A DNA stretch of 64,000 bases from Aphelocoma coerulescens (taxonomy: Eukaryota; Chordata; Aves; Passeriformes; Corvidae). Location: NCBI RefSeq assembly GCF_041296385.1, contig NC_091017.1, positions 79,537,055 to 79,601,054 on the forward strand, written 5' to 3'. Below are positions 33,749-64,000 of this stretch, piece after piece. Made by a program: the position numbers and the translations under genes. Position 1 is the first letter of the stretch, and each line of letters starts with the position of its first letter. Under the pieces are notes generated by a model. That model was not told the DNA's origin, made no database searches, and saw nothing but the letters and a program-made list of their open reading frames with translations.

Positions 33749-33754
33749 GTGGTC

Positions 33755-42612: not shown

Positions 42613-42768
42613 CTCCCTGGGATTGCCTGGGATGGGAGATCTCCTCTCATTTCAATGAAGGGGGCCTTTCAGCTTATATCAGGTTTTTTTTCCCCCCCAG
42701 TAAATGCTTTTGGCCTCTAAAGCACCAGTGGTTTTGAAGACATTGGGAAGAAGATAGTGTTGAACACA
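42608..42768 (+). other. Predicted first exon of array transcript
   Basis: From the predicted start A42608 to the donor GTGAGTATTT at 42769, giving 161 nt. It contains only short upstream frames (the longest about 21 codons), so it would be mainly untranslated. The intron that follows (42769-42861, 93 nt) has a branch-like 'ttctaatttc' and a long pyrimidine tract ending TTTCTTTAG. Supported by signals only. Confidence 0.45.
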
Positions 42769-42861
42769 GTGAGTATTTAGGCTCATAATTTTGGCTTGAG
42801 TGTTCAGAGGTGGTAAGGTGCTTTTCTAATTTCAGTTTTTCTTCTTGGTTTTTTTCTTTAG

Positions 42862-42983
42862 GAGCATTGTAACTTCCAGGTTGTATTGAGTATGAAGCTT
42901 CAAATTTTTTTAGCACATTCATTGTGTCATAAAAGGACCTTGCCCATATCAAAGATGATATCCAAAATTGTGGCTTCTGATAG
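42862..42983 (+). other. Predicted second exon of array transcript
   Basis: It starts after the acceptor TTTTTTTCTTTAG and ends before a perfect donor GTAAGTTATG at 42984, giving 122 nt. One frame is open throughout, with an ATG at position 31 of the exon (MKLQIFLAHSLCHKR...), leaving two bases at the junction. Joined to the E4-like module of the leader it stops within six codons. Joined to module E1 of monomer 1 it stays open through E2. Coding status is unresolved. Confidence 0.45.
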
Positions 42984-43203
42984 GTAAGTTATGGATTGCA
43001 GCTGGGAGAGTGTGAGCAGGGTAGCTGGCTTAGGAAGTGCCAGAAGGGGTTTTGAAGGCCATAGGGTGGGAAAAGGTGTCTATTTGGGCCTACCTAAGGC
43101 TTTTTTCCTAAGCACAGTAGATGCATTTATACATCTTAAAGCACACAAATGCATCCACCGCACTCATAGAAATACCATATAACTTTGCCCCTTGCTGTCT
43201 CAC

Positions 43204-44450: not shown

Positions 44451-44491
44451 ATGCAGATGGATTAAATCGGTGGCAGAGTGCCCCATACCGG
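44451..44491 (+). other. Module E1 of M1 (exon-like, 41 nt)
   Basis: Acceptor TTTCTTTCAG, donor GTGAGAGGG. With one base carried in (g) it reads D-ADGLNRWQSAPYR and ends on a codon boundary. That phase is also open in the right-hand copies (ADGLNPWQSAPYR). Other copies have lost parts: M2 lacks two bases before the donor and M5 has CTG in place of the acceptor CAG. Confidence 0.5.
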
Positions 44492-44591
44492 GTGAGAGGG
44501 CTTGCACAGGAAGGTCAGTCACCATTTGTCTTTGCAGGGCAAGTGTAAATGGTGACTGTGTTCCAGCATTGTTCTTTGTCTTTATTTTTAG

Positions 44592-44633
44592 GAGGGAAAG
44601 CTAGATCTCAGCAGTCAAGGTCAAGTGAGCAAG
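44592..44633 (+). other. Module E2 of M1 (exon-like, 42 nt)
   Basis: Acceptor TTTATTTTTAG, donor GTAAGCAG. In phase with E1 it reads EGKLDLSSQGQVSK; in later copies EVKPDLSSQGQVNE. This is the best-kept module: by eye the AG and the GTAAG donor are present in every monomer, and the length stays 42 nt. Confidence 0.55.
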
Positions 44634-44977
44634 GTAAGCAGTGACCGGTGGAAAGAAAAAGTTGTTATTCCTTGGGTGCCAAGTTCTGGTACAGCTCTAA
44701 GCATCCACTGTCATTTGTGTGTTTTAGGGGGTCCACTTGTATTATGCTGAGCCCCCTCACCGACTGGCCGATGTACCCGGCTCGCTGCCCTCATGAGCCC
44801 TCCCAAAGCATTATGGGACTCTGCGATGAAGCCTTTACCTTTTCCATTCAAAGATACCGTCCGGGCAGACTTTGGCAACGGCTGAGAAGTTGGGACGAGT
44901 CGGGGAGGGAGGGGGGAGGACCGAGGGTCTGCTCAAGTCTCAGCAATGCTGCATCGCCTTGTCTCCTCTTAACCCAG

Positions 44978-45057
44978 GTATACCCTACAATGATGGTGCC
45001 AGCCTTGGAGCGCGGCCAAAGTGTGTGGCCCCAGGACCCCGAGCTTCTTAGGAGATG
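44978..45057 (+). other. Module E4 of M1 (exon-like, 80 nt)
   Basis: Acceptor CTCTTAACCCAG, donor GTGAGTAG. Read from its first base the frame is VYPTMMVPALERGQSVWPQD. In other copies it is VYPA-(T/M)MA-SA-SERGQSVRPEDPGLLRRR, with several length changes of three or six bases. It ends with two bases over; joining to E5 normally makes CG|C TGA, a stop. Confidence 0.5.
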
Positions 45058-45764
45058 GTGAGTAGCGGAATTGTTGGGTTTTGGCTAACCTGCCACTAAG
45101 TTCAAGCCTTGATATTTGGTTTTCTTTATTGTAGCTGACTGAGACAACAGGCTGGCAATGGCAGGAGCTTCCTGGATGGCAAGGCGGCCCTCTTTTGCAC
45201 CCGAAGAGGATTCACATCCCTGGATGTCTGAGAGATAAGTCAACGGGATGGAAGCGGGGTGTTGGGTAGGGGGTTGCTGGGAGGGATTTTTGAGTCAGCT
45301 TTGGAGATAGGGCTACCCACAAAGGGGCCCCTTAGGCCACATAATGGGAAAGTCTCACTTTTGATCACAGTGCCGAGGTGTGCAGGGCAGAGCAGTCCCA
45401 GTGCATGTTGTGACACTTCTCTATTGTGTGTTCTGTGTCTTTTGGGCATCTTGTGTTTCATGTCTTTTGCCTTAGCCCTTTGATGTGCTTGTGGTCATTC
45501 TTCTCGTCGAGAGTTTTCTTTTCTTGTTGTGTCCCCTCCTTTGTCATCTGCTGCATGCAAATCCTGCATGGGATTTGGCCCGGAGCTGCTCTGCCCTACT
45601 GCACAGTCTGGCCTATAGGTGTAATAGGGCAAGGCTTGGGGACTTGGAATTTGTTCTGTAGGGTGTAGTTTGGCCTCTAGATGATATTCCTAGATTGACA
45701 CAAGATGCCTGGAGCTGTTAAGTTATCATGCAGCACTTTGACTTTTGTCATCATTTTCTTTCAG

Positions 45765-47064
45765 ATGCAGACGGATTAAATCAGTGGCAGAGCTCCCCAC
45801 ACCGTGAGGGGGTTCACACAGGAAGGTCAGTCACCATTTGTCTTTGCAAGGCAAGTGTGAATGGTGACTGTGTTCCAGCATTGTTCTTTGTCTTTATTTT
45901 TAGGAGGTAAAGCTGGATAGCAGCAGTCAAGGACAAGTGAGCGAGGTAAGCAGTGACTAGTAGACAGAATGACTTGCTATTGCTTGGGTATCAATTTCTG
46001 GTGCATCCATTGTTATTTGTGTGCTTTAGGGGGTCCACTTGTATTATGCTGAACCTCCTTGCCAACTGGCCGACAGACCCAGTTTGCTGCCCTCATGAAC
46101 CCTCCGGAAGCATTACAGGACTCTGCAATGAAGTCTTTACATTTTCCATTCGAAGCTACCATCCTGCTGCCTTTGGCAACGGCCGAGGAGTTGCAGCAAG
46201 TTGGGGATGGAGGGAGGCGGATTGAGGGTCCACTCAAGTTTCAGCTGTGCCACATCACCTTGTCTCCTTAACCCCAGTATACCCTGCAACGATGGCATCA
46301 GCCTCGGAGTGTGGCTGAAGTGTGCGGCCAGAGAACCCCGGCCTACATAGGAGACGGTGAGTGGCAGAGTTGTCGGGTTCTGGCCGAGGTGCCACTAACT
46401 TTGTGCACTGTTGTTTGGTTTGGTTTTGTTTATTGTAGCTGACTAAGAGAGAACAGCCCGGTGATGGCAGGAGCTTCCTGGACGGTGAGGCCACCTTCTT
46501 TTATGCCTGAGGTAGATTTGCATCCCTGGATGTCCAAGAGATAAGTTGAGGGGGTGAAAGCAGAGTGTCAGGTCAGGGCTTCCCAGGAGGGAACATTGAG
46601 CCAGCTTCAGAGATGGGGATGTCTAAGAAGGGGCCCCTTAGGCCCCATAAAGGGAAAGTATAACTTTTGATTAAAACGCTTATGTGTGCAGAGCAGTCCT
46701 GGTGCGTGTCATGTCACTTGTCTGTTGTGCGTTCTGTCTCATTTAGGCATCTTGTCTCATGTATTTAGTCTTAGCCCTTCAATGTGCTTGCAGCCATTCT
46801 TCCTGCTGAGAGTTTTCTCTCCTTGTTGCATCCCCTTGTTTGTCATCTCCTGTGTCACGGGTACCTGCATGGGTTTGGCCCAGAGCTGCTATGCCCTGCT
46901 GCATAGCCTGGCCTATAGTTGTAATAGGACAGGGCCCCGGTACTTGAGATTTGTTATGTAGGGTGTAGTTTGACCTCAAGATGTTATTCCTAGACTGACA
47001 CAGGATGGCTGGAGCTGTGAAGTTATCATGCAGCCCTTTGACTTTTTACATCACTTTCTTTCAG
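45765..47064 (+). repeat. Monomer M2 (short, 1300 bp)
   Basis: Same order as M1. The E1 donor follows a two-base deletion ('cacaccgtgagg'). E2 ends GTAAGC. The E4 acceptor reads CCCCAG with the first exon base missing, and E4 has an in-frame stop (TGA in 'tgtggctgaag'). The E5 donor is GTGAGG. Lacks the 400-bp long segment. Confidence 0.9.
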
Positions 47065-48375
47065 ATGCAGATGGGTTAAATCCATGGCAGAGCGCCCCCC
47101 CACTAGTTGAGGGGGTTCCCACAGGAAGGTCAGTCACTGTTTGTGTTTGCAGGGCAAGTGTGAATGGTGGCAATGTTCCAGCATTGTTCTTTGTTTTTAG
47201 GAGGTAAAGCTGGATAGCAGCAGTCAAGGTCAAGTGAGCATGGTAAGCAGTGACTGGTGGAAAGAAAAAGTTGTTAATCCTTGGGTGCCAAGTTCTGGTA
47301 CACCTCTAAGCATCCACAATCATTTGTGTGTTTTAGGTGGTCCACTTGTATTATGCTGAAGCACCTCCATGACCGGCCAACAGACACGGTCTGCCACCCT
47401 TGTGAGCTCTTCAGAAGCATTACGGGACTCTGTGACGGAGCCTTTACCTTTTCCATTCAAAGGTGCTGTCCAGGCACCCTTTGGCAACGGCCAGGTAGTT
47501 GTGGTGAGTCAGGGAGGGAGGAAGAGTGAGGGTCTGCTCAAGTTTCAGTAATGCTGCATCACCTTGTCTCCTCTTAACCCAGGAATATGTGGCGACGATG
47601 GCGTCGGCCTCGGAGCACGGCCAAAGTGTGCGGCCCGAGAACCCTGGCCTTCTTAGGGGATGGTGAGCGGTGGAATTGTTGGGTTCTGGCCGAGGTGCCA
47701 CTAAGTTTGTGCACTGATGTTTGGTTTGGTTTTGTTTATTGTAGCTGACTAAGAGAGATCAGCCCAGTGATGGCAGGAGCTTCCTGGATGGTGAGGTGGC
47801 CTTTTTTTGTGCCCGAGGAGGATTTGCATCCCTGCACGTCTGAGAGATAAGTCGAGGGGGTGAAAGCAGAGTGTCGGGTCGGGGCTTGCCGGGAGGGAAT
47901 ATTGAATCTGCTTCAGAGATGGGGATGTCTAAGAAGGGGCCCCTTAGGCCCCATGAAAGGAAAGCCTCACTTTTGATCACAAGGCCGAGGTGAGCCAGGC
48001 AGAGCAGACCCAGTGCATGTCATGTCACTTGTCTATTGTGCGCCCTGTCTCTTTTGGGCATCTCATGTCTTCTGTCTTAGCTCTTCAATGTGCTTGTGGT
48101 TATTCTTCTCACTGAGAGTTTTCTCTCCTCATCCGTTCACCTCGTTTGTGATCTCCTGTGTCACAGGTGCCTGCATGGGTTTGGTCTGGAGCTGCTCTGC
48201 CCTGCTGCACAGTCTGGCCTATAGTGTGTTAGTTGTAATAGGACAGGGCCCCGGGACTTGATATTTATGTAGGGTGTAATTTGGCCTCTAGATGATATTC
48301 CTAGATTGACACAGGATGCCTGGAGCTGTTAAGTTATCATGCAGCACTTTGACTTTTGTCATCACTTTCTTTCAG
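47065..48375 (+). repeat. Monomer M3 (short, 1311 bp)
   Basis: The E1 donor has decayed to 'ctagttgagg'. E2 (GTAAGC), E4 (GTGAGC) and E5 (GTGAGG) donors remain. E3 keeps a GTGAGC donor ('cccttgtgagctc'). E4 begins 'gaatatgtgg', an insertion relative to the others. Confidence 0.9.
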
Positions 48376-50079
48376 ATGCAGATGGGTTAAATCTGTGGCA
48401 GAGCGCCCCCCACCGGTTGAGGGGGATTCCTGCAGGAAGGTCAGTCACTGTTTGTGTTTCCTCAGCAAGTGTAAACTGGTGGCTTTGTTACAGCATTGTT
48501 CTTTGTCTTTGTTCTTAGGAGGTAAAGCCAGATCTCGGCAGTCAAGGTCAAGTGAATGAGGTAAGAAGAAAGTGGAAAGTGGAAAGAACCACTTGGTATT
48601 CCTTGGGTGCCAAGTTCTGGTACAGCTCTAAGCATCCATTGTCATTTGTGTGTTTCAGGTGGTCTGCTTGTGTTCTCTGAAACTCCATGACCGGCAGACC
48701 CGGCTCGCCACCCTTGTGAGCCCTCTGAAAGTATTATGGGACTTTTTGACCATGCCTTCACCTTTTCCATTCGAAGGGTCTTTCTGAGCAGCCTTTAGCA
48801 ATGGCTGGGGAGCTGCAGCATGTTGGGGAGGGAGGAGGAATGAGGGTCTGCTCAAGTCTCAGCAATGCCACATCACCTTATCTCCTCCTAATCCAGGTAT
48901 ACCCTGCAATGACAGTGTCAGCCTTGGAGCGTGGCCAGAGTGTGCAGCCTGAGGACCCTGGCCCTATTAGGAGACGGTGAGTAGCAGAATTGTCGGGTTT
49001 TGGCTGAGGTGCCACTAAGCTAATGTACTGATGTTGGGTTTGGGGTTTTTTTGTAGCTGATTGAGAGAGAACAGCCCAGTGACTGCAGGATCTTCCAGGA
49101 CGGCAAGGTGGCCTTCTTTTGTGCCCGAGGCAGATTCACATCCCCAGGCGTCTGAGAGATAAGTCGAGGCTTGTTGACCCACAGAGGGGGTGACATCAGG
49201 TTGTTGAGTTGGGACTCGCTGGGAGGGATTTTTGAGTCAGATTTGGAGGTGGGGATACCCAAGAAGGGGCCCCTTAGGCCAACATAAAGGGAAAATCTTG
49301 CTTTTGATCACAATGCCAAGGTATACAGGGCAGAGCAGTCCTGGTGCATGTCACTTGTCTAGTGTGTGTTCTGTCTTTTGGCCATCTTGTGTCACAGGTG
49401 TTTTGCCTTAGCCCTTTGAGATGCTTATTGCAAATGCTGGGCGTTACTCTTAGCATCTCTGTTCTTGGTGTTCCTCAGTGTGGTGCTGATACCATTGATC
49501 CTTTGACTCTTGAGCTTGGAGCTGCATCAGAATCGCATCTCTTTAGCAGTGTTGAGTCAGGTGTCTTTTCAGGTCTTGTTCTGAGCTGCATTGACAGCTA
49601 TGCACCACAACAATCCACTAAAGGGGATGAGGACTTGCGAAAATACGAAGATAGCTAGAGGATTCCACCCGTACAACTCAGGCATCCATTTTTGCGGTTC
49701 TTGGATAAAGCCTTTGTGTTAGCATCCTCTTCTGCCAGGGTTCTTGGAGCCCTGTTGGCTCACTGTCGGTCTCACCTAAGTCATCTCATTCCTCATTCTC
49801 TTGGTCCTTGTGATCATCTAGCCCAGAGTTTTCCCTCCTTGTTGTGTCCCTCATTTGTCATCTCCTGTGTCACGGGTGCCTGAGTGGGTTTGGCCCAGAG
49901 CTGCTCTGCCCTGATGCACACTCTGCTGTATGGGTGTAATAGGACAAGGCCTGTGGGCTTGTAATTTGTGATGTAGGGTGTAGTTTGCCCTCTAGATGGT
50001 ATTCTGAGATTGTCACAAGATGGCTGGAGCTGTTAAGTTCTCATGCAGCACTTTGAATATTGTCCTCAGTTTCTTTCTG
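48376..50079 (+). repeat. Monomer M4 (long, 1704 bp)
   Basis: First full copy with the extra ~400-bp segment (about 49419-49829). E1 donor 'ggttgagg', E2 donor GTAAGA, E3 donor GTGAGC, E4 donor GTGAGT, E5 donor GC. The E5 pyrimidine tract is T-rich ('ggtttttttgtag'). Confidence 0.9.
49419..49829 (+). repeat. Extra segment defining long monomers (M4 copy)
   Basis: About 400 bp starting 'gagatgcttattgcaaatgc' and ending before 'agagttttccctcc'. It recurs in M5 (about 51149-51553), M8 (55520-55925) and M11 (59886-60295), and a diverged version lies in the leader (about 43710-44160). Short monomers jump from 'ccctttgatgtgcttgcag' directly to 'gagagttctctctcc'. Its presence in the oldest unit suggests that short monomers arose by deletion. 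Confidence 0.8.
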
Positions 50080-51813
50080 ATGCAGATGGATTAAGTCCGT
50101 GGCTGAGTGCCCCTGTACCAGTTAAGGGGGCTCCCGCAGGAAGGTCAGTCACTGTTTGTCTTTGCAGTGCAAGTGTAAATGGTGGCTGTGTTACAGCATT
50201 GTTCTTTGTGTTTGTTCTTTGTGTTTGTTCTTAGGAGGTAAAGCTAGATTTCAGCAGTCAAGGTCAAGTGAATGAGGTAAGAAGTCACTGGTGGTAAGAA
50301 CCACTTGTTATGCCTTGGGTGCCAAGTTCTGGTACAGCTCTAAGCATCCATTGTCATTTGTGTGTTTCAGGCAGTCACCTTGTATTACATCAAAACCTCT
50401 CACTGACCGGCTGACAGACCCGGCTTGCCACCCTTGTGACCCCTCGAGAAGTATTACGGGACTCTGCGATGAAGCCTTTACCTTCTCCATGTGAAGGTAC
50501 TGTCTGGGTAGCCTTTGGCAACGGCCAAGTAGTTGCAGTGAGTTGTGGAGGGAGGGAGGAGTGAGGGCCCCCTCAAGTTTTGGCAGTATCGCATCACCTT
50601 GTCTCCTCTTAACCCCAGTATACCCTGCGACAATGGCGATGGCGTTGGTCTCGGAGCTTGGCCAAAGCGTGCGGCCCGAGGACCCCGGCCTTTTTAGGAG
50701 ACGGTGAGTGGCAGAATTGACAGGTTTTGGCTGAGGTGCCTCTAAGTTCATGCACTGATGTCTGTTTTGTTTTGTTTATTGTAGTTCATCAAGAGATAAG
50801 CAGCCCGATGAAGGCGTGAGCTTCCTGCATGGTGATGCAGCCTTCTTTTGCACCCGAGGCAGATTGACATCCCCAGACATCCAAGAGATAAGTTGAGACC
50901 TGTGACCCACAGTAGGGGTGAAAGCGGGGTGTTGAGTTGGGACTCACCAGGAGGTATTTTTGAGTCAGATTTGGAGGTGGGGATACCCAAGAAGCGGCCC
51001 CTTAGGCCCCATAAAGCTTAAGTCTTGCTTTTGATCACAGTGCCGAGGTGCGCAGGGCAGAGCAGGCCTGGTACGTGTCACCTGTCTATTGTGCGTTCTC
51101 TGTCTTTTGTGCATCTCGTGTCACAGGTCTTCTGCCTTAGCCCTTTGAGATGCTTATCGCAAACGCTGGGCATTATTCTTAGCGTCTCTGTTCTTGGTGT
51201 TCCTCAGTGTGGTGCCGATACCATTGATCCTTTGACTCGTGAGCTTGGAGTCGCATCAGAATCGCGTCTCTCTTCAGCGACGTTGAGTCGGGTGTCTTTT
51301 CAGGTCTTGTTCGGAGCTGCATCGACAGCTGTGCACTGCAACAATCCATTATAGGGCATGAGGACTTTTAATAATGTGAAGATAGCTGGAGGATTCCACC
51401 CGTCCAATTCGCGGGCATCCGTCTTTGCGGTTCTTGGAATAAGCCCTTCTGTTATCATCCTCCTCTGCCAGGGTTCTTGCAGCCTTGTTGGCTCACTGTC
51501 GGTCTCGCCGTGGTCATCTCATTCCTCATTTGCTCGGTCCTTGTGATCATCTAGCCTAGAGTTTTCTCTCCTTGTTGTGTCCCCTTGTTTGTCATCTTCT
51601 GTGTCACGGGTGCCTGAGTGGGTTTGGCCCAGAGCTGCTCTTCCCTGATGCATACTGTGGAGTATGGGTGTAATAGGACAAGGCCTGGGGATGTGGAATT
51701 TGTGGTGTAGGTTGTAGTTTGGCCTCAAGATGGTATTCCTAGACTCATACAGGATGGCTGGAGCTGTGAAGTTCTAATGCAGCTCTTTGACTTTTGTCAT
51801 CACTTTCTTGCAG
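50080..51813 (+). repeat. Monomer M5 (long, 1734 bp)
   Basis: A chimeric copy. Its left part is as diverged as M1-M4: the E1 acceptor has mutated to CTG, the E1 donor is 'gttaag', and a 17-bp duplication 'tttgttctttgtgtttg' precedes E2. From about 50850 rightwards it is nearly identical to the same part of M8 and M11. The higher-order repeat therefore starts inside this monomer. Confidence 0.9.
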
Positions 51814-52495
51814 ATGCAGACGGATTAAATCTGCGGCAGAGCGCCCCATACCGGGTGAGGGGGTTCCCACCTGAAGGTCGGTCACTGTTTGTCTTTGCAG
51901 GGCAAACATAAATGGTGGCTGTGTTACAGGATTGTTCTTTGTCTTTGTTCTTAGGAGGTAAAGCCAGATCTTAGCAGTCAAGGTCAAGTGAATGAGGTAA
52001 GAAGTCACTGGTGGAAAGAACCACTTGTTATGCCTTGGGTGCCAAGTTCTGGTACAGCTCTAAGCATCCATTGTCATTTGTGTGTTTCAGGTAGTCCCCT
52101 TGTATTACACCGAACTCCTCGCCGACTGGCTGACAGACTTGTCTTGCCGCCCTCCTGAGTCCTCCGCAAGTATCACGGGACTCTGCGATGAAGCCTTTAC
52201 CTTTTCCATGCGAAGGTACCGTCCCGGTAGCCTTTGGTGACGGCCGAGGAGTTGCGGGAAGTCGGGGTGGGAGGGGGGGGAGCGAGGGTCCGCTCAAGTT
52301 TCAGCAGTCCCGCATCACCTCCTCTCCTCTTAACTCAGGTATACCCTGCGATGGCGGTATCGGCCTCGGGCGTGGCCAAAGCGTGGGGCCCAAGGACCCC
52401 GGCCTTCTTAGGAGACGGTGAGTAGTGGAACTGTTGGGGGTTTGGCCAATGTGCCACGAAGTTCGTGTACTGATGTTTGGTTTTCTTTATTGTAG

Positions 52496-52541
52496 CCGTC
52501 TAAAAGACAAAAGCCCGGCAATGGTAGGAGCTTCCAGGATG
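52496..52541 (+). other. Module E5 of M6 (exon-like)
   Basis: Acceptor CTTTATTGTAG, donor GTGAGGCG, 46 nt. In M6-type monomers the first bases are 'ccgtctaaaag', which removes the stop seen in other copies. Following E4 the frame then stays open for about 33 codons, up to 'gagagataa', if the donor is not used. Confidence 0.45.
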
Positions 52542-53128
52542 GTGAGGCGGTCTTCTTTTGCGTCCCAGGTGGATTCACATCTCAGGACGTCTGAGAGATA
52601 AGTCAAGGGGATGAAAGCGGAGTATCGAGTCGGGCCTTGCCGGGAGGGATTTTTGCGTCAGCTTTGGAGATGGGGATACCCAAGAAGGGGCGCCTTAGCC
52701 CGCATAAAGTGAAAGTCTCACATTTGATGACAATGCTGAGGTGCGCAGGGCAGAGCAATCGGAGTGCATGTTGCGTCACTTGTCTATAGTGCATGCCATG
52801 TCTTTTGGGTGTCCTGTGTCACAGGTCTTTTGCCTTAGCCCTTTGATGTGCTTGCAGTCATGCTTTCCACCCTGAGTTCTCTCTCCTTGTTGTATCCTCT
52901 CGTTTGTCATCTCCTCTGTCATGGGTGCCTGCATGGGTTTGGCCCAGAGCTGCTCTGCCCTGCTGCATACTCTGGCATATAGGTGTAATAGAACAAGGCT
53001 TGGGGACTTGAAATTTGTAATGTAGGGTGCAGTTTGTCCTCTAGTTGATATTTTTAGATTGTCAGAAGATGGCTGGAGCTGTGAAGTTCTCATGCAGCCC
53101 TTTGACTTTTGTCATCGCTTTCTTGCAG

Positions 53129-53169
53129 ATGCAGACGGATTAAATCTGTGGCAGAGCGCCCTATACCGG
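53129..53169 (+). other. Module E1 of M7 (exon-like)
   Basis: Acceptor CTTTCTTGCAG, donor GTGAGGGG, 41 nt. Phase with one carried base reads ADGLNLWQSALYR. This monomer shows the complete set of five modules with the clearest edges. Confidence 0.5.
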
Positions 53170-53269
53170 GTGAGGGGGTTCCCACAGGAAGGTCGGTCAC
53201 TGTTTGTGTTTCCTCAGCAAGTGTAACTGGTGGCTTTGTTATGGCATTGTTCTTTGTCTTTGTTCTTAG

Positions 53270-53311
53270 GAGGTAAAGCCAGATCTCGGCAGTCAAGTTC
53301 AAGTGAATGAA
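53270..53311 (+). other. Module E2 of M7 (exon-like)
   Basis: Acceptor TTTGTTCTTAG, donor GTAAGAAG, 42 nt, reading EVKPDLGSQVQVNE in phase with E1. The last base is A here (gaa|gtaag) where other copies have G. Confidence 0.5.
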
Positions 53312-53405
53312 GTAAGAAGTCACTGGTGGAAAGAACCACTTGGTATTCCTTGGGTGTCAAGTTCTGGTACAGCTCTAAGCATCCACTGTCATTTGTGTGT
53401 TTCAG

Positions 53406-53470
53406 GCGGTCCCCTTGTATTACACGGAAACCCCTCACCGACTGGCTGATGGACCTGGCTCCCTGCCCTC
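53406..53470 (+). other. Module E3 of M7 (exon-like)
   Basis: Acceptor TTGTGTGTTTCAG, donor GTGAGTCC, 65 nt. In phase with E2 it reads AVPLYYTETPHRLADGPGSL and two more codons, leaving two bases. The donor is kept in M3, M4, M7, M10 and M13 but lost in the M6- and M8-type monomers. An alternative later donor AAG|GTACCG near 53531 would give a longer exon. Confidence 0.45.
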
Positions 53471-53651
53471 GTGAGTCCTCTGCAAGTATCATGGGACTCT
53501 GCGATGAAGCCTTTACCTTTTCCATGCGAAGGTACCGTCTGGGTAGCCTTCAGCAACGGCCGAGGAGTTGCAGCATGTCGGGGAGGGAGGAGGAACAAGG
53601 GTCCACTCAAGTTTCAGCAATGCTGCATAACCTTGTCTCCGTTCAACCCAG

Positions 53652-53731
53652 GTATACCCTGCGATGATGGCGTCGGCCTTGGAGCGCGGCCAGAGCGTGC
53701 GGCCTGAGGACCCGGGCTCTCTTAGTGAACG
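53652..53731 (+). other. Module E4 of M7 (exon-like)
   Basis: Acceptor CAACCCAG, donor GTGAGTAG, 80 nt. Read from its first base it is VYPAMMASALERGQSVRPED and continues open. In the phase delivered by E3 it stops at once (CGA TGA), so E3 and E4 cannot both be coding in one transcript of this copy. Confidence 0.5.
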
Positions 53732-56184
53732 GTGAGTAGTGGAATTGTTGGGTTTTGGCTGACATGCCACTAAGCTCATATACTGATGTTTGGTTGTCTT
53801 TATTGTAGCTGACTGAGAGACAATAGCCTGGCAATGGCAGGAGCTTCTGGGCCGGCGAGAGGCCGCCTTCTTTTGCGCCCCAGGAAGATTCACATCCCCA
53901 GATGTCCGAGAGATAAGTTGAGGGATATGACCCACGGAGGGAATGAAAGCGGGGTGTGGGGCCGGGTCTCTCGGGGAGGGAGTTTTGAGTCAGCTTTGGA
54001 GATGGGGATGTCCAAGAAGGGGCGCCTTAGCCCGCATAATGGGAAAGCCTCACATTTGATCGCCATGCTGAGGTGCGCAGGGCAGAGCAATCGCAGTGCA
54101 TGTTGTGTCACTTGTCTATTGTGCATGCCGTGTCTTTTGGGCATCTTGTGTCACAGGTCTTTTGCCTTAGCCCTTTGATGTGCTTGCAGTCATGCTTTTT
54201 GCCGAGAGTTCTCTCTCCTCGTTGCATCCCCTCTTTTGTCGTCTCCTGTGTCACGGGTGCCTGCATGGAATGGCCCAGAACTGCTCTGCCCTGATGCATA
54301 CTCTGGCATATAGGTGTAATAGAACAAGGCCCAAGGCCTTTAAATCCATAATGTATGGTGTAGTCTGGCCTCTAGATGATATTCCTAGGTTGTCACAAGA
54401 TGGCTGGAGCTGTGAAGTTCTCATGCAGCTCTTTGACTTTTGTCATCGCTTTCTTGCAGATGCAGACGGATTAAATCCGTGGCAGAGCGCCCCATACCAG
54501 GTGAGGGGGTTTCCTGCAGGAAGGTCAGTCACCGTTTGTTTGCGGGGCAAGTGTAATTGGTGGCTGTGTTACAGCATCGTTCTTTGTCTTTGTTTTTAGG
54601 AGGTAATGCCAGATCTCAGCAGTCAAAGTCGAGTTCGTGAGGTAAGTGGTGACCGGTGTACTGAACTGGTTGTTATTGTTTCATTGCCAAGTTCTGGCAC
54701 TCTAAGCTTTAAGCATCCATTGTCATTTGTGTGCTTTAGGCAGTCCCCATGTATTATGGTGAAATTCCTTGCCAACTGGCTGATGGACCTGGCTCGCCGC
54801 TGTCATTAGCCCTCCGGAAGTATTACAGGACTCTGTGAGGAAGCCTTTACCTTTTCCATTTGAACGTGCCGTCCAGGTTGCCTTCGGCAACGGCCGGGTA
54901 GTTGCAGTGAGTTGCGGAGGGAGGGAGGAGCGAGGGCCCACTCAAGTTTCGGCAATGCCGCATCACCTCGTCTCCTCTTAACCCAGGTATACTCTGTGAC
55001 GATGACGATGGCGTTGGCCTCAGAGCGTGGCCAAAGCGTGCGGCCTGAGGAGGCCAGCCTTGTTAGGAGACGGTGAGTGGCAGAATTGACAGGTTTTGGC
55101 TGAGGTGCCACTAAGTTCATGCACTGATGTTTGTCTGGTTTTCTTTATTGTAGCTGACTAAGAGAGAACCAGCCCGGTGAAGGCACGAGCTTCCCGCATG
55201 GTGATGCAGCCTTCTTTTGCACCCGAGGCAGATTGACATCCCCAGACATCCAAGAGAGATAAGTTGAGACCTGTGACCCACAGTAGGGGTGAAAGCGGGG
55301 TGTTGAGTTGGGACTCACCAGGAGGTATTTTTGAGTCAGATTTGGAGGTGGGGATACCCAAGAAGCGGCCCCTTAGGCCCCATAAAGCTTAAGTCTTGCT
55401 TTTGATCACAGTGCCGAGGTGCGCAGGGCAGAGCAGGCCTGGTACGTGTCACCTGTCTATTGTGCGTTCTCTGTCTTTTGTGCATCTCATGTCACAGGTC
55501 TTCTGCCTTAGCCCTTTGAGATGCTTATCGCAAACGCTGGGCATTATTCTTAGCGTCTCTGTTCTTGGTGTTCCTCAGTGTGGTGCCGATACCATTGATC
55601 CTTTGACTCGTGAGCTTGGAGGTGCATCAGGATCACGTCTCTCTTCAGCGATGTTGAGTCGGGTGTCTTTTCAGCTCTTGTTCTGAGCTGCATTGTCAGC
55701 TGAGCCCTGAAATGATCCATTATAGAGGATGAAGGCTTGTAAGAATGTGAAGCTAGCTAGAGGATTCCACCCGTCCAATTCTCGGGCATCCATCTTTGCG
55801 GTTCTTGGAATAAGCCCTTCTGTTATCATCCTCCTCTGCCAGGGTTCTTGCAGCCTTGTTGGCTCACCGTCGGTCTCGCCGTGGTCATCTCATTCCTCAT
55901 TTGCTCGGTCCTTGTGATCATCTAGCCTAGAGTTTTCTCTCCTTGTTGTGTCCCCTTGTTTGTCATCTTCTGTGTCACGGGTGCCTGAGTGGGTTTGGCC
56001 CAGAGCTGCTCTTCCCTGATGCATACTGTGGAGTATGGGTGTAATAGGACAAGGCCTGGGGATGTGGAATTTGTGGTGTAGGTTGTAGTTTGGCCTCAAG
56101 ATGGTATTCCTAGACTCATACAGGATGGCTGGAGCTGTGAAGTTCTAATGCAGCTCTTTGACTTTTGTCATCACTTTCTTGCAG

Positions 56185-59100
56185 ATGCAGACGGATTAAA
56201 TCTGCGGCAGAGCGCCCCATACCGGGTGAGGGGGTTCCCACCTGAAGGTCAGTCACTGTTTGTCTTTGCAGGGCAAACATAAATGGTGGCTGTGTTACAG
56301 GATTGTTCTTTGTCTTTGTTCTTAGGAGGTAAAGCCAGATCTTAGCAGTCAAGGTCAAGTGAATGAGGTAAGAAGTCACTGGTGGAAAGAACCACTTGTT
56401 ATGCCTTGGGTGCCAAGTTCTGGTACAGCTCTAAGCATCCATTGTCATTTGTGTGTTTCAGGTAGTCCCCTTGTATTACACCGAACTCCTCGCCGACTGG
56501 CTGACAGACTTGTCTTGCCGCCCTCCTGAGTCCTCCGCAAGTATCACGGGACTCTGCGATGAAGCCTTTACCTTTTCCATGCGAAGGTACCGTCCCGGTA
56601 GCCTTTGGCGACGGCCGAGGAGTTGCGGGAAGTCGGGGTGGGAGGGGGGGGAGGGAGGGTCCGCTCAAGTTTCAGCAGTCCCGCATCACCTCCTCTCCTC
56701 TTAACTCAGGTGTACCCTGCGATGGCGGTATCGGCCTCGGGGCGTGGCCAAAGCGTGGGGCCCAAGGACCCCGGCCTTCTTAGGAGACGGTGAGTAGTGG
56801 AACTGTTGGGGGCTTGGCCAATGTGCCACGAAGTTCGTGTACTGATGTTTGGTTTTCTTTATTGTAGCCGTCTAAAAGACAAAAGCCCGGCGATGGTAGG
56901 AGCTTCCAGGATGGTGAGGCGGTCTTCTTTTGCGTCCCAGGTGGATTCACATCTCAGGACGTCTGAGAGATAAGTCAAGGGGATGAAAGCGGAGTATCGA
57001 GTCGGGCCTCGCCGGGAGGGATTTTTGCGTCAGCTTTGGAGATGGGGATACCCAAGAAGGGGCGCCTTAGCCCGCATAAAGTGAAAGTCTCACATTTGAT
57101 GACAATGCTGAGGTGCGCAGGGCAGAGCAATCGGAGTGCATGTTGTGTCACTTGTCTATAGTGCATGCCATGTCTTTTGGGTGTCCTGTGTCACAGGTCT
57201 TTTGCCTTAGCCCTTTGATGTGCTTGCAGTCATGCTTTCCACCCTGAGTTCTCTCTCCTTGTTGTATCCTCTCGTTTGTCATCTCCTCTGTCATGGGTGC
57301 CTGCATGGGTTTGGCCCAGAGCTGCTCTGCCCTGCTGCATACCCTGGCATATAGGTGTAATAGAACAAGGCTTGGGGACTTGAAATTTGTAATGTAGGGT
57401 GCAGTTTGTCCTCTAGTTGATATTTTTAGATTGTCAGAAGATGGCTGGAGCTGTGAAGTTCTCATGCAGCCCTTTGACTTTTGTCATCACTTTCTTGCAG
57501 ATGCAGACGGATTAAATCCGTGGCAGAGCGCCCCATACCGGGTGAGGGGGTTCCCACAGGAAGGTCGGTCACTGTTTGTGTTTCCTCAGCAAGTGTAGCT
57601 GGTGGCTTTGTTACGGCATTGTTCTTTGTCTTTGTTCTTAGGAGGTAAAGCCAGATCTCGGCAGTCAAGGTCAAGTGAATGAGGTAAGAAGTCACTGGTG
57701 GAAAGAACCACTTGGTATTCCTTGGGTGTCAAGTTCTGGTACAGCTCTAAGCATCCACTGTCATTTGTGTGTTTCAGGCGGTCCCCTTGTATTACACGGA
57801 AACCCCTCACCGACTGGCTGATGGACCTGGCTCGCTGCCCTCGTGAGTCCTCTGCAAATATCATGGGACTCTGCGATGAAGCCTTTACCTTTTCCATGCG
57901 AAGGTACTGTCTGGGTAGCCTTCAGCAACGGCCGAGGAGTTGCAGCATGTCGGGGAGGGAGGAGGGACAAGGGTCCACTCAAGTTTCAGCAATGCTGCAT
58001 AACCTTGTCTCCGTTCAACCCAGGTATACCCTGCGATGATGGCGTCGGCCTTGGAGCGCGGCCAGAGCGTGCGGCCTGAGGACCCGGGCTCTCTTAGTGA
58101 ACGGTGAGTAGTGGAATTGTTGGGTTTTGGCTGACATGCCACTAAGCTCATATACTGATGTTTGGTTGTCTTTATTGTAGCTGACTGAGAGACAATAGCC
58201 TGGCAATGGCAGGAGCTTCTGGGCCGGCGAGAGGCCGCCTTCTTTTGCGCCCCAGGAAGATTCACATCCCCAGATGTCCGAGAGATAAGTTGAGGGATAT
58301 GACCCACGGAGGGAATGAAAGCGGGGTGTGGGGCCGGGTCTCTCGGGGAGGGAGTTTTGAGTCAGCTTTGGAGATGGGGATGTCCAAGAAGGGGCGCCTT
58401 AGCCCGCATAATGGGAAAGCCTCACATTTGATCGCCATGCTGAGGTGCGCAGGGCAGAGCAATCGCAGTGCATGTTGTGTCACTTGTCTATTGTGCATGC
58501 CGTGTCTTTTGGGCATCTTGTGTCACAGGTCTTTTGCCTTAGCCCTTTGATGTGCTTGCAGTCATGCTTTTTGCCGAGAGTTCTCTCTCCTCGTTGCATC
58601 CCCTCTTTTGTCGTCTCCTGTGTCACGGGTGCCTGCATGGAATGGCCCAGAACTGCTCTGCCCTGATGCATACTCTGGCATATAGGTGTAATAGAACAAG
58701 GCCCAAGGCCTTTAAATCCATAATGTATGGTGTAGTCTGGCCTCTAGATGATATTCCTAGGTTGTCACAAGATGGCTGGAGCTGTGAAGTTCTCATGCAG
58801 CTCTTTGACTTTTGTCATCGCTTTCTTGCAGATGCAGACGGATTAAATCCGTGGCAGAGCGCCCCATACCAGGTGAGGGGGTTTCCTGCAGGAAGGTCAG
58901 TCACCGTTTGTTTGCGGGGCAAGTGTAATTGGTGGCTGTGTTACAGCATCGTTCTTTGTCTTTGTTTTTAGGAGGTAATGCCAGATCTCAGCAGTCAAAG
59001 TCGAGTTCGTGAGGTAAGTGGTGACCGGTGTACTGAACTGGTTGTTATTGTTTCATTGCCAAGTTCTGGCACTCTAAGCTTTAAGCATCCATTGTCATTT

Positions 59101-60550
59101 GTGTGCTTTAGGCAGTCCCCATGTATTATGGTGAAATTCCTTGCCAACTGGCTGATGGACCTGGCTCGCCGCTGTCATTAGCCCTCCGGAAGTATTACAG
59201 GACTCTGTGACGAAGCCTTTACCTTTTCCATTTGAACGTGCCGTCCAGGTTGTCTTCGGCAACGGCCGGGTAGTTGCAGTGAGTTGCGGAGGGAGGGAGG
59301 AGCGAGGGCCCACTCAAGTTTTGGCAATGCCGCATCACCTCGTCTCCTCTTAACCCAGGTATACTCTGTGACGATGGCGTTGGCCTCAGAGCGTGGCCAA
59401 AGCGTGCGGCCTGAGGAGGCCAGCCTTGTTAGGAGACGGTGAGTGGCAGAATTGACGGGTTTTGGCTGAGGTGCCACTAAGTTCATGCACTGATGTTTGT
59501 CTGGTTTTCTTTATTGTAGCTGACTAAGAGAGAACCAGCCCGGTGAAGGCACGAGCTTCCCGCATGGTGATGCAGCCTTCTTTTGCACCCGAGGCAGATT
59601 GACATCCCCAGACATCCAAGAGAGATAAGTTGAGACCTGTGACCCACAGTAGGGGTGAAAGCGGGGTGTTGAGTTGGGACTCACCAGGAGGTATTTTTGA
59701 GTCAGATTTGGAGGTGGGGATACCCAAGAAGCGGCCCCTTAGGCCCCATAAAGCTTAAGTCTTGCTTTTGATCACAGTGCCGAGGTGCGCAGGGCAGAGC
59801 AGGCCTGGTACGTGTCACCTGTCTATTGTGCGTTCTCTGTCTTTTGTGCATCTCATGTCACAGGTCTTCTGCCTTAGCCCTTTGAGATGCTTATCGCAAA
59901 CGCTGGGCATTATTCTTAGCGTCTCTGTTCTTGGTGTTCCTCAGTGTGGTGCCGATACCATTGATCCTTTGACTCGTGAGCTTGGAGGTGCATCAGGATC
60001 ACGTCTCTCTTCAGTGATGTTGAGTCGGGTGTCTTTTCAGCTCTTGTTCTGAGCTGCATTGTCAGCTGAGCCCTGCAATGATCCATTATAGAGGATGAAG
60101 GCTTGTAAGAATGTGAAGCTAGCTAGAGGATTCCACCCGTCCAATTCTCGGGCATCCATCTTTGCGGTTCTTGGAATAAGCCCTTCTGTTATCATCCTCC
60201 TCTGCCAGGGTTCTTGCAGCCTTGTTGGCTCACCGTCGGTCTCGCCGTGGTCATCTCATTCCTCATTTGCTCGGTCCTTGTGATCATCTAGCCTAGAGTT
60301 TTCTCTCCTTGTTGTGTCCCCTTGTTTGTCATCTTCTGTGTCACGGGTGCCTGAGTGGGTTTGGCCCAGAGCTGCTCTTCCCTGATGCATACTGTGGAGT
60401 ATGGGTGTAATAGGACAAGGCCTGGGGATGTGGAATTTGTGGTGTAGGTTGTAGTTTGGCCTCAAGATGGTATTCCTAGACTCATACAGGATGGCTGGAG
60501 CTGTGAAGTTCTAATGCAGCTCTTTGACTTTTGTCATCATTTTCTTGCAG
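56185..60550 (+). repeat. Higher-order repeat copy 2 (M9-M10-M11, 4366 bp)
   Basis: M9 56185-57500 (1316), M10 57501-58831 (1331) and M11 58832-60550 (long, 1719). Sequence order and module edges match copy 1 almost base for base. One visible difference is a 6-bp deletion in E4 of M11 ('gacgatggcgttgg' against 'gacgatgacgatggcgttgg' in M8). Confidence 0.95.
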
Positions 60551-63500
60551 ATGCAGACGGATTAAATCTGCGGCAGAGCGCCCCATACCGGGTGAGGGGG
60601 TTCCCACCTGAAGGTCAGTCACTGTTTGTCTTTGCAGGGCAAACATAAATGGTGGCTGTGTTACAGGATTGTTCTTTGTCTTTGTTCTTAGGAGGTAAAG
60701 CCAGATCTTAGCAGTCAAGGTCAAGTGAATGAGGTAAGAAGTCACTGGTGGAAAGAACCACTTGTTATGCCTTGGGTGCCAAGTTCTGGTACAGCTCTAA
60801 GCATCCATTGTCATTTGTGTGTTTCAGGTAGTCCCCTTGTATTACACCGAACTCCTCGCCGACTGGCTGACAGACTTGTCTTGCCGCCCTCCTGAGTCCT
60901 CCGCAAGTATCACGGGACTCTGCGATGAAGCCTTTACCTTTTCCATGCGAAGGTACCGTCCCGGTAGCCTTTGGCGACGGCCGAGGAGTTGCGGGAAGTC
61001 GGGGAGGGAGGGGGGGGAGGGAGGGTCTGCTCAAGTTTCAGCAGTCCCGCATCACCTCCTCTCCTCTTAACTCAGGTGTACCCTGCGATGGCGGTATCGG
61101 CCTCGGGGCGTGGCCAAAGCGTGGGGCCCAAGGACCCCGGCCTTCTTAGGAGACGGTGAGTAGTGGAACTGTTGGGGGCTTGGCCAATGTGCCACGAAGT
61201 TCGTGTACTGATGTTTGGTTTTCTTTATTGTAGCCGTCTAAAAGACAAAAGCCCGGCGATGGTAGGAGCTTCCAGGATGGTGAGGCGGTCTTCTTTTGCG
61301 TCCCAGGTGGATTCACATCTCAGGACGTCTGAGAGATAAGTCAAGAGGATGAAAGCGGAGTATCGAGTCGGGCCTCGCCGGGAGGGATTTTTGCGTCAGC
61401 TTTGGAGATGGGGATACCCAAGAAGGGGCGCCTTAGCCCGCATAAAGTGAAAGTCTCACATTTGATGACAATGCTGAGGTGCGCAGGGCAGAGCAATCGG
61501 AGTGCATGTTGTGTCACTTGTCTATAGTGCATGCCATGTCTTTTGGGTGTCCTGTGTCACAGGTCTTTTGCCTTAGCCCTTTGATGTGCTTGCAGTCATG
61601 CTTTCCACCCTGAGTTCTCTCTCCTTGTTGTATCCTCTCGTTTGTCATCTCCTCTGTCATGGGTGCCTGCATGGGTTTGGCCCAGAGCTGCTCTGCCCTG
61701 CTGCATACCCTGGCATATAGGTGTAATAGAACAAGGCTTGGGGACTTGAAATTTGTAATGTAGGGTGCAGTTTGTCCTCTAGTTGATATTTTTAGATTGT
61801 CAGAAGATGGCTGGAGCTGTGAAGTTCTCATGCAGCCCTTTGACTTTTGTCATCACTTTCTTGCAGATGCAGACGGATTAAATCCGTGGCAGAGCGCCCC
61901 ATACCGGGTGAGGGGGTTCCCACAGGAAGGTCGGTCACTGTTTGTGTTTCCTCAGCAAGTGTAACTGGTGGCTTTGTTACGGCATTGTTCTTTGTCTTTG
62001 TTCTTAGGAGGTAAAGCCAGATCTCGGCAGTCAAGGTCAAGTGAATGAGGTAAGAAGTCACTGGTGGAAAGAACCACTTGGTATTCCTTGGGTGTCAAGT
62101 TCTGGTACAGCTCTAAGCATCCACTGTCATTTGTGTGTTTCAGGCGGTCCCCTTGTATTACACGGAAACCCCTCATCGACTGGCTGATGGACCTGGCTCG
62201 CTGCCCTTGTGAGTCCTCTGCAAGTATCATGGGACTCTGCGATGAAGCCTTTACCTTTTCCATGCGAAGGTACCGTCTGGGTAGCCTTCAGCAACGGCCG
62301 AGGAGTTGCAGCATGTCGGGGAGGGAGGAGGGACAAGGGTCCACTCAAGTTTCAGCAATGCTGCATAACCTCGTCTCCACTCAACCCAGGTATACCCTGC
62401 GATGATGGCGTCGGCCTTGGAGCGCGGCCAGAGCGTGCGGCCTGAGGACCCGGGCTCTCTTAGTGAACGGTGAGTAGTGGAATTGTTGGGTTTTGGCTGA
62501 CATGCCACTAAGCTCATATACTGATGTTTGGTTGTCTTTATTGTAGCTGACTGAGAGACAATAGCCTGGCAATGGCAGGAGCTTCTGGGCCGGCGAGAGG
62601 CCGCCTTCTTTTGCGCCCCAGGAAGATTCACATCCCCAGATGTCCGAGAGATAAGTTGAGGGATATGACCCACGGAGGGAATGAAAGCGGGGTGTGGGGC
62701 CGGGTCTCTCGGGGAGGGAGTTTTGAGTCAGCTTTGGAGATGGGGATGTCCAAGAAGGGGCCCCTTAGCCCGCATAATGGGAAAGCCTCACATTTGATCG
62801 CCATGCTGAGGTGCGCAGGGCAGAGCAATCGCAGTGCATGTTGTGTCACTTGTCTATTGTGCATGCCGTGTCTTTTGGGCATCTTGTGTCACAGGTCTTT
62901 TGCCTTAGTCCTTTGATGTGCTTGCAGTCATGCTTTTTTCCGATAGTTCTCTCTCCTCGTTGCATCCCCTCTTTTGTCGTCTCCTGTGTCACGGGTGCCT
63001 GCATTGGTTTGGCCCAGAGCTGCTCTGCCCTGCTGCATACCCTGGCATATAGGTGTAATAGAACAAGGCCCAAGGCCTTTAAATCCATAATGTATGGTGT
63101 AGCCTGGCCTCTAGATGATATTCCTAGATTGTCCCAAGATGGCTGGAGCTGTGAAGTTCTCATGCAGCCCTTTGACTTTTGTCATCACTTTCTTGCAGAC
63201 GCAGACAGATTAAATCCGTGGCAGAGCGCCCCATACCAGGTGAGGGGGTTTCCTGCAGGAAGGTCAGTCACCGTTTGTTTGCGGGGCAAGTGTAATTGGT
63301 GGCTGTGTTACAGCATTGTTCTTTGTCTTTGTTTTTAGGAGGTAATGCCAGATCTCAGCAGTCAAAGTCGAGTTCGTGAGGTAAGTGGTGACCGGTGTAC
63401 TGAACTGGTTGTTATTGTTTCAATGCCATGTTCTGGCACTCTAAGCTTTAAGCATCCATTGTCATTTGTGTGCTTTAGGCAGTCCCCATGTATTATGGTG

Positions 63501-64000
63501 AAACTCCTTGCCAACTGGCTGATGGACCTGGCTCGCCGCTGTTGTTAGCCTGCCGGAAGTATTACAGGACTCTGTGAGGAAGCCTTTACCTTTTCCATTT
63601 GAACGTGCCGTCCAGGTTGCCTTCGGCAACGGCCGGGTAGTTGCAGTGAGTTGCGGAGGGAGGGAGGAGCGAGGGCCCACTCAAGTTTCGGCAATGCCGC
63701 ATCACCTCGTCTCCTCTTAACCTAGGTATACTCTGTGACGATGACGATGGCGTTGGCCTCAGAGCGTGGCCAAAGCGTGCGGCCTGAGGAGGCCAGCCTT
63801 GTTAGGAGACGGTGAGTGGCAGAATTGACGGGTTTTGGCTGAGGTGCCACTAAGTTCATGCACTGATGTTTGTCTGGTTTTCTTTATTGTAGCTGACTAA
63901 GAGAGAACCAGCCCGGTGAAGGCACGAGCTTCCCGCATGGTGATGCAGCCTTCTTTTGCACCCGAGGCAGATTGACATCCCCAGACATCCAAGAGATAAG
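60551..64000 (+). repeat. Higher-order repeat copy 3, cut by the window (M12-M13-M14)
   Basis: M12 60551-61866 (1316), M13 61867-63198 (1332) and M14 from 63199, interrupted at 64000 just after E5. The end of M13 and the start of M14 (about 62937-63200) differ from copies 1 and 2 and resemble the neighbouring monomer type instead. The array clearly goes on to the right. Confidence 0.93.

Follow-up and report, generated by a model that had tools for sequence, protein, structure and literature searches.

Tandem five-exon cassettes in Aphelocoma coerulescens, probably the body of one spliced gene

Introduction

The window analysed here, a 64-kb stretch of Aphelocoma coerulescens DNA, ends in a tandem repeat whose units look like small sets of exons. 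Is this a plain satellite in which splice-like sequences occur by chance, or an amplified block of real exons that yields a long spliced transcript, as a preliminary description had proposed? No published description of the array was found, as judged by titles and the beginnings of abstracts, and four of the names of the matching crow genes returned no papers.

Results

Array organization

Fourteen monomers (M1 to M14) lie in head-to-tail tandem at 44,431-64,000, each with five exon-like modules (E1 to E5) on the plus strand (Table 1). Thirteen units are complete (1.30-1.73 kb) and one is cut by the window end. By alignment, the M6-M8 trimer of about 4.37 kb recurs at 98.0-99.7% identity as M9-M11 and as M12-M14; the distinct monomers therefore number eight of 14, and the tests of conservation, the shuffles and the simulation were confined to these eight, the near-copies M9-M14 being set aside. 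Identity among the eight was 78.3-86.3%, save for M5 and M8 at 90.6%. The exons measure about 41, 42, 126, 80 and 46 nt, and the introns between them in M1 100, 94, 124 and 77 nt.

Table 1. Coordinates of the array units and associated features, all on the plus strand
Feature	Span	E1	E2	E3	E4	E5	Remarks
Candidate upstream promoter (unproven)	33100-33300						CpG-rich; donor-like GTGAGT at 33245
Leader exon, upstream of array	42862-42983						AG/GAG ... GATAG/GTAAGTT; homologue of C. hawaiiensis LOC125323244 (P0003) residues 45-88
M0, diverged leader monomer	43167-44430						E4 end, intron, E5, spacer; E4 donor GT at 43284; E5 acceptor AG ends 43368
M1	44431-45744	44451-44491	44592-44633	44728-44853	44978-45057	45135-45178	E5 GC donor; alignment and exon spans
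M2	45745-47044	45765-45803	45904-45945	46030-46155	46277-46356	46439-46484	
M3	47045-48355	47065-47106	47201-47242	47337-47462	47583-47662	47745-47790	
M4	48356-50059	48376-48416	48519-48560	48659-48776	48897-48976	49057-49102	Extra spacer segment, ~380 nt
M5	50060-51793	50080-50120	50235-50276	50371-50496	50618-50703	50785-50831	Extra segment; E1 acceptor lost
M6	51794-53108	51814-51854	51955-51996	52091-52215	52339-52417	52496-52541	
M7	53109-54439	53129-53169	53270-53311	53406-53531	53652-53731	53809-53854	
M8	54440-56164	54460-54500	54600-54641	54740-54865	54987-55072	55154-55200	Extra segment
M9	56165-57480	56185-56225	56326-56367	56462-56586	56710-56789	56868-56913	Near-copy of M6
M10	57481-58811	57501-57541	57642-57683	57778-57903	58024-58103	58181-58226	Near-copy of M7
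M11	58812-60530	58832-58872	58972-59013	59112-59237	59359-59438	59520-59566	Near-copy of M8
M12	60531-61846	60551-60591	60692-60733	60828-60952	61076-61155	61234-61279	Near-copy of M6
M13	61847-63178	61867-61907	62008-62049	62144-62269	62390-62469	62547-62592	Near-copy of M7; best spliced match to crow P0001
M14	63179-64000	63199-63239	63339-63380	63479-63604	63726-63811	63893-63939	Near-copy of M8, cut by window end
Crow 'E0' homologue in spacer	62916-63050						Matches residues 1-45 (extra exon of P0001, P0002)
Further 'E0' homologues, e.g.	46782-46919, 48088-48225, 57218-57352						In other monomers

Splice sites

The five modules with AG and GT borders that had been described for each monomer were recovered when the sites were counted over all 14 units. 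E2 carries AG and GTAAG in 14 of 14, and the E4 donor GTGAG(T/C) is likewise present in every unit, both as first read; the E4 acceptor AG is found in 12, lying one base off in M2 and M5. The acceptors of E3 and E5 are AG throughout. At E1, AG is present in 13 units (lost in M5) and the donor GT in 12, M3 and M4 having TT there. The E5 donor is GT in nine units and GC in five, and that of E3 is a weak GT (mostly GTACCG or GTGCCG) in 11. Decay had been correctly noted at the E1 acceptor of M5 and the E1 donor of M3, with M4 now added, but it had been misplaced for the E3 donor: at the junction backed by the crow models (44853/44854 and homologues) GT is gone in M1, M2 and M4, not in the M6 and M8 types.

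Donors and acceptors exceed chance on the plus strand and are few on the minus strand. Sites were scored using weight matrices of approximate human values. The consensus of the eight distinct monomers held seven donors scoring at least 7, four of them module donors (E1, E2, E4, E5), and eight acceptors scoring at least 8, including the five module acceptors; 2000 dinucleotide shuffles gave means of 2.7 and 2.1, and 1.35% and 0% of them reached the observed numbers. At stricter cut-offs, five acceptors (at least 10) compared with 0.59 in shuffles (0% reached this), and two donors (at least 9) with 0.7, which was not significant (15.75%). The minus strand of the consensus gave three donors and one acceptor at the looser cut-offs. 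Alignment columns with a site in at least six of the eight monomers comprised five donors and five acceptors on the plus strand, and one donor and no acceptor on the minus strand; 1000 shuffles, confined to gap-free columns, gave means of 1.1 donors and 0.56 acceptors with maxima of 6 and 5. All five kept acceptor columns were module acceptors, while module donors made up only two of the five kept donor columns (E2, E4).

Retention summed over the consensus sites was 92 versus 85.2 +/- 6.0 in a neutral simulation from which columns with fewer than six of eight letters were dropped, and 14.75% of 400 simulations did as well. The expectation that splice dinucleotides would be more conserved than their neighbours was therefore not clearly borne out; the conservation test is not decisive, and such conservation was rejected as sole proof. 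A contrast of score with retention (p 0.02 and 0.01) was discarded, since retained sites are favoured by high maxima and the comparison is thereby biased.

Crow gene models and the leader region

Five models annotated as uncharacterized proteins (P0001 to P0005) in three Corvus species match the array exons; their genes are LOC116438844 and LOC116438855 (C. moneduloides), LOC121660875 (C. kubaryi) and LOC125323244 (C. hawaiiensis). Protein searches returned one match among 32 candidates and, in a further round, five among 156 (E <= 0.1), the query being one of these. The matches include isoforms X3 and X5, numbers which presumably imply transcript support, and P0005 is an isoform of P0004. These annotations were produced automatically, and some of their structure may have been predicted ab initio from the very splice signals considered here.

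HSP edges fell exactly at 44491, 44592-44633 and 44728, and the junctions 44491/44592, 44633/44728 and 45057/45135, proposed from the letters, proved exact. Residues 46-138 of P0001 (LOC116438844), 93 in all, gave an ungapped alignment to spliced E1-E2-E3-E4 that scored 319 versus 212 unspliced and at most 142 for 300 decoy exon chains. P0003 and P0004 follow the order E4-E5-E1-E2, which would take them across a monomer boundary. Their spliced scores were 145 and 160, whereas each scored 84 unspliced and the decoys reached at most 87 and 74. Decoys were run for these three models; P0002 scored lower spliced (122) than unspliced (153). For P0003-P0005 the matches considered were those at 43.9-51 kb and, elsewhere, those with E < 2. 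These alignments support an amplified block of real exons, and the annotated crow proteins are the strongest evidence for the predicted spliced exons. The models share homologous exons and junctions with the array, but they are labelled as proteins and most also hold unique exons not found in the window. The unique 3' exons of P0002 and P0004 (VHLQDV... onwards) had no convincing match in the window, off whose end the array runs, and no GT donor was found by eye at the place in the array spacer that matches 'E0'.

The leader exon occurs together with array exons in P0003, one of the five models. It was found by tblastn at default settings (E 2e-4, match 42862-42984), its edges are canonical splice sites with the end within one base, and the alignment scored 82 (Smith-Waterman), with 60 shuffled peptides reaching at most 51. 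No convincing match within 30-44.4 kb was found for P0003 residues 1-46 and 86-146. Between the leader exon and the array, M0 was detected by nhmmer (E 3.5e-71 over 43167-44285, with an extra marginal match at 44405-44429). It retains the E4 donor motif GGTGAGTAGC from 43283, in keeping with the preliminary description, and the E5 acceptor motif TTTATTGTAG, where a 17-base stretch is the second longest exact run shared with a monomer in 42501-44430.

Transcription and composition signals

CpG o/e was 0.75 in 33001-34000 versus 0.03-0.24 in most flanking kilobases; no convincing crow exon match was found at the candidate promoter located there. A T>A skew starts after 33 kb (mean 0.078 over 34-44 kb versus 0.000 to the left, p 0.007); the upstream G>C skew was not significant (p 0.18). 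The plus strand lacks AATAAA from 37,838 onward, up to the end of the window. Exons other than E3 are A-rich or neutral, in contrast to T-rich introns, a difference that circular shifts equal in 2.7% of cases and random five-exon placements in 0.7%; taken together, the five exons had a purine excess that was not significant (29% of shifts). Exons were no more conserved than introns once CpG columns were excluded, and singleton substitutions gave no significant strand asymmetry in six type pairs with or without CpG columns (all p > 0.1), E3 and E5 being taken slightly longer here (to 44862 and 45184) than in the final spans. Substitution asymmetry was accordingly rejected as a test of germline transcription. 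A viral-contig scan using a 30-base pattern gave no matches.

Coding potential

No codon-position signal was found in the eight distinct monomers, and an open, constrained frame in each unit was lacking: in the crow frame, E3 has stops in six of the eight and frame-shifting deletions in the other two. The E3 frame differs between P0001 and P0004, and P0002 and P0004 translate one unique 3' exon in two different frames (a 17-residue compatible run versus a maximum of 9 in 60 shuffles). E1 and E2 are in one frame in all five models and E4 in one frame in all four that hold it; stops interrupt the remaining frames of E2 in 8/8 and 7/8 monomers. P0001-P0004 had no Pfam match above cut-off, P0004, the sole one tried, had none in PDB, and the ORF at 44645-45058 had none in the protein database. 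Given the differing frames, the E3 stops and deletions and the missing codon-position signal, the array gene is read as spliced and most likely non-coding.

Small RNAs and RNA structure

Rfam gave no match in the window at the gathering score, and four weak matches, none a snoRNA, in 42.0-51.8 kb at a relaxed threshold. A C/D-box scan found no candidate common to the eight distinct units, four of which had none on the plus strand; M4, M5 and M8 each have a box C with one mismatch, followed 70-71 nt later by a D box, and other candidates lay in M3 and M4. In intron 1 a 12-bp inverted repeat is paired in 93.8% of cells over eight monomers and folds strongly in M1 (z -4.8), with changes that are one-sided or pair-breaking and in no case compensatory. 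Spliced units from the eight monomers showed no folding advantage over shuffles (z -0.75 to 1.46), and conserved RNA structure was rejected on this ground; four sliding windows, located in M1, M2 and M8, went beyond z -2.5.

Discussion

The array is probably the body of one spliced plus-strand gene with periodic exons, most likely a non-coding one. Its transcript would start with the leader exon (42,862-42,983) or an exon further upstream and continue through repeated cassettes of five small exons, a spacer intron of 0.6-1 kb linking each E5 to the E1 of the following unit. Of the long periodic transcript proposed earlier, the crossing of one monomer boundary is implied by the crow models; that the locus is transcribed in A. 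coerulescens with many units in one RNA is what we infer beyond this. Such an RNA would be repetitive and probably nuclear, with repeat number setting the dose of binding sites, and unit number probably grows by unequal exchange, as the three near-identical trimer copies suggest. More tentatively, and with some doubt, the locus might be a fast-evolving passerine lncRNA in which many five-exon cassettes (here at least 14), spliced from unit to unit, give a very long periodic RNA that acts as a nuclear, dose-tunable binding platform, its exon number changing by unequal exchange. On the main reading, the exon-intron cassette of a bird gene has here turned into a satellite-like array, and the crow protein records are predicted to be pieces of one repetitive, probably non-coding transcript.

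A chance origin of the splice-like sequences in a plain satellite hardly deserves credit. Pyrimidine-rich sequence makes acceptor-like sites common and the strict donor count was not significant, but the shuffles and the minus strand speak against it, as does the exact agreement of the exons with crow gene models, and it is already contradicted unless those models are artefacts. An unlikely yet more serious reading is that a fragment of a spliced gene gave rise to the satellite and that the copies here are now silent or unspliced, the active gene lying in crows or at another locus. Near-neutral site retention, the changed ends of E1, E3 and E5 in some units and a homogenised trimer typical of satellites agree with such a relic; against it, the E2 and E4 donors and the E2, E3 and E5 acceptors are kept in all 14 units, though six of these are recent copies, the more diverged leader retains its E4 donor and E5 acceptor, and one crow model unites leader and array exons.

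That the units were tandem protein-coding genes (crow ORFs of 172-269 aa) and have decayed here is improbable: the P0001 frame is open from E1 to E4 and aligns to the spliced unit without gaps, and by eye the E4 frame meets a stop at the start of E5 in most units, yet codon-position bias is absent, E3 is interrupted or shifted, the models use different frames for the same exons, and neither the Pfam searches of P0001-P0004, above cut-off, nor the PDB search of P0004 gave a match. Still less probable is a host gene for intronic snoRNAs or miRNAs. The intron 1 inverted repeat and the box C and D pairs of the long units would suit one, whereas the hairpin changes without compensation; a snoRNA host was rejected for want of any Rfam family in the window at the gathering score, of a snoRNA among the relaxed matches at 42.0-51.8 kb, and of a C/D candidate common to the eight units.

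The non-coding spliced gene favoured here resembles, by analogy, snoRNA-host exon arrays and macrosatellite lncRNAs. MEG8/Rian is like the SNORD115/SNORD116 host transcripts, Firre has a repeated-exon structure, and chicken MHM is a tandem repeat with a unit of ~2.2 kb, hypermethylated in males. Like the array, the SNORD115/SNORD116 hosts combine tandem units with a spliced host, tandem spliced exons being found here by homology to the crow models only; unlike it, they belong to an imprinted mammalian locus, and here Rfam gave no known snoRNA in the introns, nor did the C/D-box scan give a candidate shared by the eight units. Introns of the host transcript carry snord116, and the spliced host RNA builds up close to where it is transcribed (PMC8162545). 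Chicken MHM, Z-linked beside DMRT1, is also a bird locus of (here probable) non-coding RNA, likened by description and not sequence; its expression is female-specific (PMC12518621). Chicken LL2R, another bird tandem repeat likened by description and not sequence, is transcribed, and its RNA makes up RNP-rich lumpy loops (PMC7151628). The macrosatellites DXZ4 and Firre share a kilobase-sized tandem unit with the array and theirs is transcribed, that of DXZ4 measuring 3 kb (PMC6985041). In the array, kilobase-sized tandem units are accompanied by higher-order copies, the trimers being at least 98.0% alike.

Array organization

Fourteen monomers were found head to tail (M1-M14), 13 complete units of 1.30-1.73 kb and one that was cut by the window end. 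M6-M8 form a trimer with further copies in M9-M11 and M12-M14 (identity at least 98.0%), which leaves eight distinct monomers. The diverged leader monomer (M0, profile match E 3.5e-71) corresponds to the portion of one unit from E4, the fourth of five exon-like modules (E1-E5), to the spacer. Four long units carry an extra spacer segment; because a piece of it is also present in the diverged leader, the long form may be ancestral. Coordinates are collected in the table.

Features of the array and its surroundings
Feature	Unit	Position
Head-to-tail array	M1-M14	44,431 to window end
Diverged leader	M0	43,167-44,285
Match of P0003 residues 45-88 to the leader exon (+, 42862-42983)		42,862-42,984
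Exon junctions of the preliminary description		44491/44592, 44633/44728, 45057/45135
Extra spacer segment, ~380 nt	M4	49427-49803
Extra spacer segment, ~380 nt	M5	51156-51536
Extra spacer segment, ~380 nt	M8	55527-55907
Extra spacer segment, ~380 nt	M11	59893-60273
Piece of extra segment	M0	43847-43913
Shifted E4 acceptor	M2	46271-46278
Shifted E4 acceptor	M5	50611-50619
Intron 1 inverted repeat, 12 bp	M1	44516-44558, and homologues
Box-C-like element	M4, M5, M8	~49810, ~51543, ~55914
mir-5595 family match (-)		43102-43173
CpG-rich stretch with donor-like site		33.1-33.3 kb
Repeat pair		18032-18576 / 28094-28624
Repeat pair (inverted)		27804-28094 / 33464-33749
20-bp minisatellite and ~47-bp A/T-rich repeat		25783-25908 and 40196-40502

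CpG observed/expected per kb was 0.40-0.60 in the trimer part (51001-64000) versus 0.22-0.50 between 44 and 51 kb; in the flank, taken from 30 kb onwards, most values were 0.03-0.24. The window is bird-like, with many 3' ends of CR1 type among the repeats below 36 kb. Two repeat pairs outside the array (300-550 bp, about 80% alike) are possibly LTR-like pieces, and short tandem repeats occur at two places.

Crow gene models

An ORF from M13-M14 had one match in the protein database, LOC116438844 of Corvus moneduloides (P0001). Residues 1-141 of this protein, used as query, gave four more matches from C. kubaryi, C. hawaiiensis and C. moneduloides. The edges of the tblastn matches of crow proteins coincided with the exon junctions placed by eye in the preliminary description.

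Crow proteins were aligned to exon chains assembled from the window, with unspliced DNA and decoy chains as controls. P0001 aligned ungapped for 93 residues, crossing three junctions, with a spliced score of 319 (unspliced 212; the highest score among 300 decoys was 142). P0004 scored 160 over E4-E5 of M8 and E1-E2 of M9 (unspliced 84, best decoy 74), with one 3-residue gap at E4/E5, and its isoform P0005, scored without decoys, gave 142 against 84 unspliced. Numbered isoforms would imply transcript support. P0003 (C. hawaiiensis LOC125323244) scored 145 (unspliced 84, best decoy 87) with several gaps; one of them, 8 residues long, falls in E5, an exon of greater length in this model. For P0002 the spliced score (122) was below the unspliced (153), probably reflecting its first 45 residues, from a spacer exon absent from the tested chain. 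The leader exon match of P0003 starts after an AG and ends within one base of a GT; on this match, P0003 is the single crow model holding leader and array exons together.

Splice signals and conservation

The E2 and E4 donors, described earlier as conserved, are indeed kept in 14/14 units, as are the E2, E3 and E5 acceptors; the E5 donor is GT in nine units and GC in five. Splice sites exceeded shuffles on the + strand and were few on the - strand; for strict donors (score at least 9) the excess was not significant. Five donor-like columns were kept in at least six of the eight distinct units, three of them non-module donors. T relative to A was lower in predicted exons than elsewhere, E3 excepted. 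The second longest run shared exactly between the leader and a unit is a 17-base stretch at the leader E5 acceptor (TTTATTGTAGCTGACTA), and the leader E4 donor sits inside one of the 11-base shared runs. In two units the E4 acceptor AG was shifted one base through two changes, with AG retained.

Greater conservation of splice dinucleotides than of neighbouring bases, the criterion put forward beforehand, was not clearly borne out: 92 sites were retained versus 85.2 +/- 6.0 in neutral simulations started from the monomer consensus, 14.75% of 400 reaching 92. Identities without CpG columns overlapped (exons 80-89%, introns 86-88%). Since neutral simulation retains nearly as many sites and these identities overlap, the array on its own would not prove function.

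Coding capacity

The crow models are named as uncharacterized proteins, and a protein-coding role in crows was weighed against a non-coding product. The E3 frame differs between P0001 and P0004, and the 3' exon shared by P0002 and P0004 is likewise read in two frames. When E3 of the window is read in the crow frame, six of the eight distinct units show stops, and the other two have small deletions in E3 (8 nt in M4, 1 nt in M6). No segment of the units had the third-position excess of change of a conserved protein. P0001-P0003 were without a Pfam match at E<=1; the one match of P0004 fell under its cut-off (12.5 versus 22.4 bits). Because of the conflicting frames, the stops and deletions in E3, the lack of third-position excess and of any Pfam match reaching cut-off, a non-coding RNA is the favoured product from these sequence comparisons, and a coding role in crows is less likely.

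Proposed transcription unit and mechanism

T>A skew sets in past 33 kb (p 0.007), and G>C skew is not significant (p 0.18). A CpG-rich stretch at 33.1-33.3 kb has a donor-like site. AATAAA was absent from the + strand of the array, which is weak evidence by itself because only 1.7 were expected from base composition. Strand bias of singleton substitutions was not significant.

A + strand transcript would enter the array from the leader. Splicing would take out the short introns within a unit as well as the spacer that separates its E5 from E1 of the following unit, so that each unit would contribute about 335 nt to the RNA (computed 327-342 nt, 8 units). E2 and E4 would be bounded by strong sites, isoforms would arise through weak or variable E1, E3 and E5 donors, and unit number may be altered by unequal exchange. 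By analogy with the snord116 host RNA, which remains near its site (PMC8162545), and with bird repeat RNAs, which form RNP-rich loops (PMC7151628), such a transcript may serve as a repetitive scaffold in the nucleus.

Intron hairpin and small-RNA-like elements

The inverted repeat of intron 1 had 93.8% of cells paired and no compensatory changes across 8 monomers; it folds strongly in M1 (z -4.8), not in most units. The mir-5595 family match is weak (28.1 bits against a gathering score of 100, E 0.038). Only in the three long units M4, M5 and M8, near the end of the extra segment, is there a box-C-like GTGATCA with one mismatch, followed by CTGA after 70-71 nt and accompanied by a short terminal stem; it may be due to chance.
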